DNA of 64,000 nucleotides from Ailanthus altissimus. Its lineage: Eukaryota > Streptophyta > Magnoliopsida > Sapindales > Simaroubaceae. The DNA is taken from NCBI GenBank assembly GCA_946807835.1, contig OX327684.1, positions 15,214,501 through 15,278,500 of the forward strand, given 5' to 3'. Below the pieces are notes generated by a model that made no database searches, was not told the DNA's origin, and saw only the letters and a program-made list of their open reading frames with translations. This document shows, in pieces, positions 13,709 to 27,399 of this stretch. The position numbers and the translations under genes are program-made. How positions within the stretch are numbered: position 1 is the stretch's first letter; the number at the start of each line of letters is the position of its first letter.

Positions 13709-14313
13709 TGTAAAGATTATTGATCAAAAAGTAAATAGAAAGTTTTTCAAATAAAGATTAAGTAATTTTCTTCTTTCTTGCAAGAAACAAATTAAATTTT
13801 TTTTTTTATAAGATAAATTTAAATCTAACTTAAGGTTGGATAGCCAAAAGGGACTTAAAAAAATCCTATATAAAAATATTAAGTATAAGGTCTTTGATTA
13901 TCAATTCTTCTATTCTATTCAGGTAAAAGAAAAGAGATGTAGAAGGGAAATTCAATTCTTCTTCATTCTCTTTAAATAGAAAGATAGAGAAATATAGAAA
14001 GGATCCCAATACCTCTCTATTCTATTTAAGTAGAAAAAGAGACATAGAGAGAGAAAAAAATAGTAGTTTAGAGAGAGAAACTGTACTAAAGAGAAAAAGT
14101 ATTGAAACATCTCTATAATTCTATTTTCTATATAATTTTGAGTTATAGTATAATATGAGACATGTTATTTAACTCAAGAAAGTGGATGTAGGTTCATAAT
14201 AACCGAATCACTATAGATCTCTAGCGTTCTTTTGCAGTTTTATTTTCTTTATTGTCTGTTGGTTTTAATTTTATGATTATTTGAGTTTTGAGTTAGACTA
14301 CGAATTTTCAACA
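13709..14313 (+). repeat. 5' LTR of the host copia element
   Basis: 605 bp, paired with 26829-27399 by shared blocks such as AAGGTTGGATAGCCAAAA and a run of TCTCT/GAGAGA-rich sequence. It ends TTTTCAACA directly before the primer site. Confidence 0.85.
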
Positions 14314-14373
14314 GTGATATCAAAACCAAAAATTTGAAGGATTATAAGAAGACAAAAAAAAAAAATTACCAAG

Positions 14374-14458
14374 AATGGTGACCACCAAGTTGGAGTTTGA
14401 GAAATTTAATAATAGAGAGACTTTTAGTTTATGGTAAAAAAAAAAAAAGTCTTGCTTG
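14374..14458 (+). pseudogene. Copia gag, N-terminal fragment
   Basis: The ATG at 14374 reads MVTTKLEFEKFNNRETFSLW, a classic copia Gag start, then a TAA where the family has an Arg/Lys codon. Coding similarity continues through an A-run to VLLV at the border of the inserted L-family LTR. Gag resumes at about 24196 with the codons that complete LLVQ. Confidence 0.85.
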
Positions 14459-15762
14459 TGTTTGAGATGGTGCTTATGTGTCATTCCAATATTGTATTAA
14501 TATTAATTATTTAATATTTATACAATAAACATTTCTAATAATATTGTTAATATTAATTATTTATGGTAACATGCTTATAACATTTCAGACATTGTATTGA
14601 TTTGAAAGAGTTCAGATCAAGTTTTAAGGAGTTTAGACCAGAGCTAAGAGTTAGCAACATTGAAAGTTATAAATGCTAAGTGTTAGCACTGCTAAGAGTT
14701 AGTATGTTATAAAAGTCGACAAAATCTAAAGAGTTAAATCATTGTCTAACATGGGACAAAGACCTACGAATATACTAATAATAACATAGTTATACAGAAT
14801 TATAAGCATTGTTAGGAAATATCATTGTGCAAGTATATTCTTGAATTAAATGTTCCTGATTTATTTCCACCGATACTAGGTATGTCGGGAGGAACCTTAT
14901 TAGATATAGATCAATGTATGTCCAGATGGTTAATCTTAGCAGAATACGAGTTTAGTGGAAGTTCGTATAGACTGAACAGACTCAACGAAAATCTCGAATA
15001 GATATCCCATAAATTCGTTAGTGGATAGTTTTCTCGAGTTGAGTAGTATTCGTGATCCTTTAACCTAAGCACCATGGTGAGCTTGTGAGTAATCCACTAT
15101 ACTTAGGTTCCACGCATGTCAGAGACCCTTCATGGTCTCACTGTTGCGTATCGTTGGGTATGGTCCGATGCTCATGAAGTCTGATGTGTGTAGATATAGA
15201 ATACATCAGCTCGTGTGGGTGAGTTGAATATCCTGATACTCCAAGATTGTATTAGAGAAATTCTTATGGCTATAAGTATAAATACACAGAAAAGAGTTTC
15301 CCGAGTGATAAACAATATCGTAAAAGTATTTGCGGATATTATTTATTTGAATATGAATCGAGGAGATAAGTTTATAGTTGAGCAATAGGAGACTTGACAG
15401 TGTTGATCTATGTCTCCGCTCTTTCAGGATATAAATAACGAAAAAATGATACGAATATGTATTAACCTCAACTTGTATGGTTCACCGCGCCATTTTGTTT
15501 ATTCATAACGTGTGTGTGTGGGGCATCGGTTATGGACTTACGAAAAAGTTCCATAAGACAAAATGTGTGTGAACTTAGTGAGTCTTACTATATGAAGTGT
15601 ACAAATTGAGCACTAGGGTAGCGCACCAAATCGAATTATTCAATCTGAGAGGTTCTCAGTGTTACGCCTCAGACCCAAAAGATCTGAAACATGACATAAC
15701 TTACACTCATTCAATAATGTGCACTTATAATTAATATTGCATAAAATTTCAAACTTAAATTC

Positions 15763-18700
15763 TGTTAGGGTCGGTGCTTACTTGCCATCCCTGAATGTAC
15801 ATATACTTGTGTATTTATACAAGTGTACATTCCCATTAAATCGCTAATATCAATTTATATGGTATTATGCATGTAACATTATAGATATTATAGATCTGAA
15901 GGAGTTCGGATCAAATCTAAAGAGTTTAGATAAGGGCTCATAGTCAGCCACCCTGAGACATATAATTGTTAAATGTTAGCACAGCTAAGTGTTAGCTGGT
16001 TATAATACTCAGTAGATTCAAGAATTGGAGCCTTGTCTGTAATGGGACATAGACTTGGGAATATACTAGTAACTGCATAGTTGCAAGAGTTACAATCGGG
16101 TGCCAGAAAATGTAAGTTGCGCAAGTATGTTCTCGAATAATAGTCCCTGATCTATTTCTACCGATGAGGGTCTATCAGTGGATACCTTTATATATAGATT
16201 AGCATATGTCATATCTATCGGGTATAGATGGTCGTTCCTGACTGACCATGAGCTTGGAGCTCGTATTGACATATGGGTATCCAGTTAGGACTAAATATGG
16301 GACAGACTCACGAGGGCTTCCGATAGACATTTAATGTAAGCCGTTAACGGAGGGTTCTCTCGAGTTGAGTAGTATACGTGGTCCTTTGACCTGAGTGCCA
16401 CGGTGGGCTTGTAAGTGATCCACCATACTTTGGTTCCACACATGTCACAGACATTTTATAATGTGATCATTGGGTATCGCTGGGTATGGTCCGATGCTTA
16501 TGGAGTCCGGTGCGTACAGATATAGAATCCGTCAGCTCCTATATGAAGTTTGATATCCAGATGCTTCGAGATTGTATCTCAGAAAGTTTTGTGGCCACAA
16601 GCAATCATCCCAAGAAAGAGTTTCGCTAGGGTGGAACAATATGGCTAAGGAGTTTGCGCATATTGTTCATTGAGATACAAATCTGGAGATAAGACATGGA
16701 TGAGCACAAGGGGATTTGACGGTGATAATCTATATCCCCGCACATCCAGGATATCATGATGGAAGGACTATATGTATGCGTTGTAAGCTCAGCTTGCATA
16801 ATTCAACACGCTGATTTGTATATCCGTGACGTGTGCATGGGGCATTGCTCACGGACTCATAGAATAGTGCCATTTGACGAATCAGGTGTAGGACCTAGGG
16901 AGTCCTACGATATGGAGTGTACTCGTTGTGCACTGGGGCAGCGTGTCAGATTAAATTATTTAATCTAGCAATATTCAGTGATTCCACAGGAATGCGTTAT
17001 GTCTGTATTTAAGTGTTAAATACAATAATTAGTTAATAATTGTTATTTACTAATTGTATACGGACATGTAGCGTATTGTGGACCCTAAATTAAGTTTACC
17101 TAAGTGTGAGATTTGGTAGGATCCACTAGGAGGTAAAGTTGGTAACTATTTATGAGGGGCAAAATAGTCATGATACACTATGATTATTTAATTGTTAAAT
17201 AATCATTCTCTCTCTCTCTCTCCTTTTTATATTATATTATATAATATATATGATTATATATTATTATATTATATATATTATATTATATATGTAGTAACCA
17301 GTATCCACAACTGGTAAGAATATGTATTTATATCTATATATAAATATATATATTTTATTTGTATGTGGGTGATCCTTGATTTATATATTGTTATTAGTAG
17401 TGTTTTTATAGGTTAAGGATATACTATTAGTATTGGGTTTATATGCAAGACTTTAAATTTATTTTAGGGACTAAATTGTTATACTTTGAAAGTTTTGAGG
17501 GTAAATTCGTAAATACTAAAGAATTAGCCTCTTAGTATAAAAATACACTTTTGAACCCTAATTTACCCATTTTTGGGTTGAGCTATCCCTTTAGAGAGAG
17601 AGAAGAGAGAAATAGAGGGGAGAGAAAGAGAAGAAGAAGAAGAAAAAGAAGAAGAAATTAAAATTTTGGATCTTAAGTGGTATATCACAACTATTTCTCA
17701 ATTTATTTGTGTTAATTAAGTTAATTCCTTCAAGTTTTGATTTCTAGAAATATGTATAATTGAGTATTTGATGTGTATTTCGTAAGATATTGTGAGAATT
17801 GATGATGATCTATAAGATAGCTTAATAAATCATGATGAATTGTGAAATTTCTGCTTGACAGTCTCTTGATCCAGTAATTTTATAAATTGTTGTGATTCGA
17901 TTCTGGTTTTAATTTTTAGTATATGAAATTAGACATGTTCAGAATCATCTGAGACTTTGAATCGATTGAAAATTCCAGAAATTGAATTTGTAGTAAATTT
18001 ACCAAAATAACCCTAAAATTCTAGAAATTTCTTGTGTTAACAGTATGATACAGTGACAAACAATTTTTTACATGCTGAATGATCTTTAAAAATTACAAAT
18101 TTATGAAATATGATAATTTTATATGTCTAATATGATATATTCGGAATTGAGAATTTAGATCAATGTGGTTGAAGTGTTATGATTTTCTAAAGTGTATCAG
18201 CTCATTGCAATATTTGATTAACAAAATTTTAAAGTTATGGAATACAATAGTTTTAAAATACTTTTTGGCAGTAATTTGGAAGTAAAATATTTATCATAGA
18301 TTATGATATGTGTTAAGAGTAATTATGTGATAGTTTTATAATTTTTGAGTTAGTATATGATTTTATAAAATTAGAGATTGAATACTGTTCAGTAAGTATC
18401 TTGATCCTGTCAGGTTAGTAGTTTGGATTCGATGGTGTGTATGGAATGGATTGTGTAAGAATTTTGATATAATATTCATATATAAGAAGGATATATGAGT
18501 CAAGAATGGTATATTCAGATTTTGGAGTAATTGGACATCATTTGATGTATTAGAAAATTTTATTAAGTGTAAGTGGTCAGAATAACAGGTTTTGAGAAAC
18601 TAAATAATTAGACCAATTCGATATGATAAGTGCAATATGTGTAATTTTATAATCTATTTAAAGTATTTTGTATAAATGTTGAGGCACATGAAAGAATTAG

Positions 18701-26526: not shown

Positions 26527-26603
26527 AAAAACTTAAACTGGATAAATCAGTAGTAATAGTATTTTTAGGTAATAAATAAACTATTCAACTTTGTAAAAAT
26601 TAG

Positions 26604-26760
26604 GGATTCAGAGAGTTAGTTTCTAGTGAAAAAGTGAAGTTAGAGAAGATAAGCATTAGGAAAAATCCTATTGATCTTGAAACTAAGGTTCCGTTAGTAA
26701 ATAAATTAAGGTTATGCTTAAGGCTGCTCCATATAGATAAAAGTAAGCAACAAAAATAAA
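26604..26760 (+). pseudogene. Copia RNase H/polyprotein C-terminal fragment
   Basis: The frame gives SSEKVKLEKISIRKNPIDL then KLRLCLRLL, matching the usual copia ending (V.LEKI.T..NPADM.TK...KF..CL.L). It belongs to the element at 13709-27399 and marks the end of its coding region before the 3' LTR at 26829. Confidence 0.7.
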
Positions 26761-26828
26761 ATATGAGCTGAAGAAGAAGAATTGCACTAAATATAAGGAT
26801 TAAACTGAATTATGACCAAAGGTGGATA

Positions 26829-27399
26829 TGTAAAGAATATTGTTCCAAAAATAATTAAGAAGTTTCCTAAATAATGATTAAATAATTTTTCTCTTTCTTG
26901 CAAAAAAAATTAAAATATTTTTTTTATAAGCTAAATTCAATTTCAACTCAAGGTTGGATAGCCAAAAAATAAAGCTTAAAGCAAACTCTATATAAAGACC
27001 TTAGGTACAAAGTCCTTAATTCTTAATTCTTCTCTATTCTTTTTAAGTAAACAGAGAGAAAAATATAGAAAGAGTATCTAATTTCTCTCCATTCACTTCA
27101 AGTAAAAAGAGAGAGAAATAATAGCAGATAAAAATAATTCTAGAGAGAGAAACTATTACAAAGAAAAAATATTATCTATAAAAAAAATGCTAGAACATCT
27201 CTGTAATTCTATTCTGTGTATGATTTTTGAGTTATAATGCAATGCTGAGCAAATTATTTAGCTAAAAAAAGTGGATGTAGATTCATAAGAATCAAATTAT
27301 TATAATTTGTAATGTTATTTTTTAGTTTTATTTTTTCACTGCTTATTAATTTTAAATTCTTAATTATTTAAGTCTTGATTAAATAGTGACTTTTCAACA
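26829..27399 (+). repeat. 3' LTR of the host copia element
   Basis: 571-bp partner of 13709-14313, starting TGTAAAGAATATTG after GGTGGATA and ending TTTTCAACA. Confidence 0.85.

Follow-up and report, generated by a model that had tools for sequence, protein, structure and literature searches.

How did positions 13709 to 27399 of a 64,000-nucleotide stretch of Ailanthus altissimus DNA (contig OX327684.1; the whole stretch, G000:C2:15214501-15278500 in the searched assembly, is called the window) come to hold broken repeats set one inside another, and does their alternation call for a special cause? We consider the locus almost certainly an ordinary nested stack of long terminal repeat (LTR) retrotransposons in a plant genome. 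The outermost layer, a Ty1/copia element, is interrupted by an LTR of a family here called L (copy A), A by an LTR of a second family, E (copy E2), E2 by another L copy (B), and B by another E copy (E1). An earlier note on this DNA had proposed these five layers with four joints, and the borders were all re-found at the same places, including the split of copia by A at 14458/24195. Self-comparison of the window yields the copia LTR pair, four L copies (A, B, C and D) and two E copies in opposite orientation; matches to copia gag and reverse transcriptase are also present. The parts of the nest, followed by the two remaining L copies, are given below; TSD denotes the target site duplication flanking an insertion.

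13709..14313, plus strand: left LTR of the outermost Ty1/copia element, a 70% BLAST repeat of 26829-27399; its TG may lie at 13706
14314..14458, plus strand: copia leader and the beginning of gag, up to the point where A inserted; from sequence and translation
14459..15659, plus strand: left piece of A, an L-family solo LTR; aligns to D, C and genomic copies
15660..15762, minus strand: 3′-terminal piece of E2, including one AATTC copy; 96% identical to the E1 end over 55 bases and 92% over 103 bases to E3, an E copy at locus L068
15763..17289, plus strand: left piece of B, an L-family solo LTR of the B subfamily; runs on into the right piece in all 19 fetched copies
17290..20009, plus strand: E1, a complete E-family solo LTR, in the TA tract of B; 87% identical to E2
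20010..20567, plus strand: right piece of B, ending in CGCCAACA; continuous with the left piece, best-scoring non-self copy 92%
20568..23091, minus strand: main piece of E2, including one AATTC copy; 87% identical to E1 over 2489 columns
23097..24194, plus strand: right piece of A; adjoins the left piece without a break in 33 of 38 genomic rows
24195..25640, plus strand: resumed copia gag, Pol_BBD region and, by eye, integrase start, decayed; from Pfam
26829..27399, plus strand: right copia LTR, repeat of the left LTR
53151..55341, plus strand: copy C, a solo L LTR with TSD TTTCC (5/5), within a different copia element, the one with repeats 50786-50945 and 57528-57689
61486..63479, minus strand: copy D, an unbroken L LTR used as reference by the earlier note; TSD TTAAT/TTAAC (4/5)

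To examine each joint, the two parts of an interrupted layer were aligned, one at a time and unjoined, to intact copies from the same genome (939 Mb, 37 contigs). The left part of A (743 bases) gave 47 scored matches, including itself and short ones, and 38 L rows were inspected (37 distinct, L016 and L045 being one place), a sample that favours relatives of A. A search with the right part of B scored 42 matches, and 19 copies were fetched besides that of the window. Genomic identity searches scored 40 candidates each, and "best-scoring" refers to the best non-self match among these; the first-look candidate counts of the four family searches (20147, 6066, 2785 and 4894) are loose.

The order copia > A > E2 > B > E1 is borne out by continuity across the joints in unbroken genomic copies. 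Aligned to copy D, the left and right pieces of A fall on neighbouring bases where E2 interrupts A, so the earlier statement that D carries A unbroken holds; the 33 continuous genomic rows show no extra base there, and one further row (L046) is off by a single base. E2 is flanked by a perfect TSD, CTCAG (15655-15659 and 23092-23096), and B likewise by AATTC (15758-15762 and 20568-20572), both as previously reported. Since these two duplications are perfect, lie outside simple sequence and stand exactly at TG..CA ends, with homology resuming in register, the nest goes beyond chance.

The TSD of E1, ATATA, is also present at 5/5, but it lies inside a TA microsatellite and proves nothing alone. 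The B|E1 joint rests instead on the 19 fetched B-type copies: in every one of them B runs on through the TA tract from its left part into its right, with aligned pieces 81-92% identical, so E1 split B inside this tract. The two parts overlap directly in 16 of the 19 junctions, and the other three leave 1, 21 or 47 bases unaligned. In L067 a second L copy distorts the apparent gap, and the B pieces that belong to this locus overlap; in L061 the left piece matches only B positions 1012-1516.

For the E2|B joint, roughly 100 bases of E2 near the point of B insertion fail to align to E1, and the window alone suggested that E2 does not heal across B. This reading was rejected, as E3 carries the segment unbroken: both E2 pieces meet there with a 5-base overlap, equal to the TSD length. 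Another B-type L copy in turn interrupts E3 near E position 2090. The E3 locus (L068, G000:C13:8812000-8821900) is a partial echo of the window nest, with E3 being a 3′ LTR by its purine-tract flank and an L-like stretch 0.7 kb away.

At the outermost joint, gag had been claimed to read on through LLVQ across A. The frame LLV|Q can be read (left side from translation, right side by eye, pieces unjoined) and Pfam recovers Retrotran_gag_2 at 24208-24546 (1.1e-12) and Pol_BBD (1.4e-07) in the resumed part; a stop codon follows the Q. The integrase piece (25441-25638) gave no Pfam match. The copia LTRs are 74% identical in global alignment (Kimura two-parameter distance, K2P, 0.333). The left one is followed by what we take to be a decayed primer-binding site, judged by eye from its resemblance to the consensus.

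The right border of A required comparison with its family. Among genomic L copies the ends read, for example, CACCAATGCAACA or CACCAACATAACA, the latter in L029 with TSD ATGAG, and A has CACCAACATAATA; L012, L013, L014 and L017 end in AATGCAACA, with perfect TSDs in L014 (TTAGG) and L017 (CAACG) and a 4/5 TSD in L013. A therefore ends at 24194, with flanks GCTTG on the left and ACTTG on the right (24195-24199), which agrees with gag resuming at 24195. An end at the first CAACA (24189), where the TSD fails, was rejected on the strength of the same genomic ends. The terminal CA of A reads TA, decayed relative to family copies, and B, E1 and E2 have TG..CA ends.

The locus thus grew in five steps: a Ty1/copia element inserted, an L-family element of Ty1/copia type entered its gag, an E-family element of Ty3/gypsy type entered the L LTR, a second L element entered the LTR of this E element, and finally another E element entered the second L LTR. 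Before or after the next insertion, each inner layer was reduced to a solo LTR by loss of its internal region and of one LTR; its own two long LTRs most likely recombined. The order of the insertions is fixed by the joints.

Several observations weigh against this reading. The flanks of A match at four of five positions, and no clean TSD was seen at the outermost copia borders. Four of the 38 L rows (L013, L019, L041 and L042) give no readable junction at the E2 site; in L041 the L copy is itself interrupted by an E copy. Continuity of E2 across B is read from one fetched copy, E3. Best-scoring non-self identities, taken inward, are 79% for copia (24195-24900), 81% for A, 94% for E2, 92% for B and 97% for E1, a series that is not strictly monotone (E2 exceeds B) and that compares short segments of different families, so it is only indicative and no clock. 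Moreover, in one survey (PMC7251063) the LTRs of the nested element had diverged more than those of its host in 1042 of 4126 pairs.

The nesting order agrees with most decay measures. Between E1 and E2 (K2P 0.133), C/G in E1 faces T/A in E2 at 127 sites and the reverse holds at 73 (p 0.00016). Among four E copies, private changes number 82 in E2 and 59 in E1 (p 0.064), with 64 in the L069 copy and 129 in the more distant E3; private C-to-T changes number 47 in E2 versus 28 in E1 (p 0.037), CpG counts alone (9 vs 4) being too few to use. The last 510 bases of E1 are 96-97% identical to the other full-length scored genomic matches. The value of the locus lies in a clean, internally ordered record of five insertions at one plant site, with joints confirmed in unbroken copies; its known order could calibrate decay measures such as C-to-T bias and subfamily identity, and it implies no new mechanism.

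What are the L and E families? Two L copies of the A subfamily, L009 and L011 (on contigs C14 and C5), each have a pair of like-oriented LTRs enclosing 4.6-4.8 kb; a primer-binding site follows the 5′ LTR, and a stretch common to both copies precedes the 3′ LTR. A tblastn search with the window copia integrase and reverse transcriptase pieces matched the interior of L009 (1.4e-14 and 2.9e-09) and, for integrase, that of L011 (4.9e-12), where reverse transcriptase had no match; five other stretches, mostly LTR plus flank, gave none. For E, locus L069 (C2) contains in succession an E LTR tail, the primer-binding site TGGTATCAGAGC, an open reading frame, a purine tract and a 2720-base E LTR, to which E1 is 91% identical. 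Three pieces of its reading frame match, in Ty3 order, gag and protease; RVT_1 and RNase H; and Integrase_H2C2, with rve below cut-off. L and E are thus LTRs of ordinary families, as two-LTR members with copia-type or Ty3-order pol exist elsewhere; from these matches L is classed as Ty1/copia-type, with LTRs of about 2.0-2.3 kb, and E as Ty3/gypsy-type, with LTRs of about 2.7 kb.

A, B, E1 and E2 are each a single LTR with a TSD, whose sequence is found elsewhere paired around an internal region (the two-LTR evidence comes from the A subfamily and from E), so the claim that all four inner layers are solo LTRs stands. In kind they do not differ from the solo LTRs attributed to LTR-LTR recombination in PMC7251063 and PMC10373317: a single LTR with TG..CA ends, a TSD, no internal region and two-LTR relatives. 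One script sorted the 37 genomic L rows into 7 with a 5/5 TSD within 2 bases of the end, 7 with marks of a 3′ LTR (AAGCAAGTGAGAGTT, or a form within three mismatches, before the LTR), 5 with marks of a 5′ LTR (a word 1-2 mismatches from the plant primer-binding site after it) and 18 unassigned; L024 and L044 also look solo by eye.

These rows bear on the earlier suggestion of a local hot spot, where unusually high LTR-LTR recombination would account for four solo LTRs in a row. All six L and E copies of the window are solo, whereas three copia elements keep both LTRs (Fisher p 0.012). This contrast fits LTR length, which PMC7251063 cites as a correlate of the solo to complete ratio, and a solo LTR would escape notice if its family had no reference. 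Elsewhere, at least 7 of 37 L rows are solo by strict marks, against 12 marked as two-LTR members; because solo L LTRs occur elsewhere, no local hot spot is needed, and we regard one as very unlikely. Two other L loci were noted in passing: L010 (G000:C26:8583500-8593000) is crowded with L pieces lying on either strand, and L016 (G000:C3:13428200-13432200) holds a B-type L inside an A-type L. Weak comparison of the L right halves in the window, scored by how many of 200 shuffles reached the observed score, gave 0 for B-C, 3 for B-D, 8 for C-D, 15 for C-A and 38 for B-A.

The alternation had also been ascribed to mutual targeting, in which L and E integrases would prefer each other's LTRs. Both E copies of the window lie in L LTRs and one of the four L copies lies in E; elsewhere E3 is split by a B-type L, L041 has an E copy in an L LTR, and the E polyprotein ends in a weak Chromo match (E 9.4e-4, 19.5 bits, below the Pfam cut-off of 25.1). 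Against this, A and C sit in copia elements, among 37 genomic L rows L041 alone contains E, and the right flanks of the 19 B-type copies, a small sample, abut L in four cases (L054, L059, L066 and L067), E in one (L058) and no member of a 14-entry library in 14. Among these 14, L051 and L065 have L some 300-440 bases off, and L062 has a distant copia match. For two equal families, four events alternate by chance in 1 of 8 cases, and both L and E are abundant. We infer that the alternation needs no special cause, the counts being too small to exclude a modest preference, and targeting as the mechanism seems extremely improbable.

Pile-ups of this kind are known and common in plant genomes, and the present one is a clean example. 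A survey of 12 plant genomes (PMC6911290) describes 1491 nested pairs, most without family preference and some with a preference for their own family; like the layers here, they arose by insertion into older elements, mostly with 5-bp TSDs. Our locus differs in stacking five layers in a single chain, four of them solo LTRs. According to that survey LTRs are not commonly targeted, whereas three insertions here lie in LTRs, which are all that remains of those elements.

The oldest layer also contains a plastid-like insert (25741-26506), overlooked by the earlier note, whose two segments meet at 26177/26178:

25741..26177, plus strand: segment 1, trnI-trnA region by eye; scattered genomic matches at 71-100%
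26178..26506, minus strand: segment 2, part of ndhA exon 2; 100% identical over 329 bases to contig C37

The minus strand of 26121-26519 encodes part of NdhA, matching a chloroplast chain (9grx, 2e-64) and Pfam NADHdh (2.3e-34); among chains named NADH-ubiquinone oxidoreductase chain 1, the top match to this translation is 7ar7, at 5.6e-15. Contig C37 measures 135,000 bases; if it is the plastid source, segment 2 would be a recent arrival in the oldest layer. For segment 1, C37 is absent from the matches listed, a tRNA scan gave no match, and Rfam gave none at gathering score and five, each below it, under permissive settings. Nothing in the plasmid collection matched the plastid-like segment.

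By eye, copia integrase sequence ends before the insert and sequence resembling the RNase H end follows it, so pol appears to have been lost at this point. Two non-contiguous plastid-like pieces would have been captured in copia pol separately from the nesting, and we infer that they probably served as filler in break repair. The nuclear plastid DNA (NUPT) filler described in PMC7037861 is alike in joining pieces of different organelle regions within nuclear DNA; here the insert lies in the oldest layer of a nest, and the plastid origin of segment 1 is judged by eye only.

Identity of one plastid-like segment to another contig, together with inner layers that are all high-copy repeats, could raise the suspicion of a chimeric assembly of repeats. 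Yet the joints show single-base precision, and each layer is a distinct copy lying 3-21% from its best-scoring scored relative, which leaves an artefact with next to no likelihood. A more speculative idea links nest and insert: L and E might read the same chromatin state on each other's LTRs, nest reciprocally above expectation, and form stacks that attract break repair with plastid filler; we hold this to be highly improbable beside an ordinary nested stack.

Further features lie outside the nest. Between 28280 and 43813 a repeat pair of about 1 kb (80% identical), 14.5 kb apart, perhaps represents the LTRs of a large element; within it are a 2.9-kb unit (32851-35741) with 890-base ends that are 98% alike and a tandem array (36942-38709). 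Self-complementary stretches of about 180-370 bases occur at 44764-44944, 48787-49156 and 49689-49941. On the minus strand, 1837-7307 contains pieces resembling a receptor-kinase gene by eye, with a 1-kb direct duplication (2672-3688 and 4878-5869, 87%).

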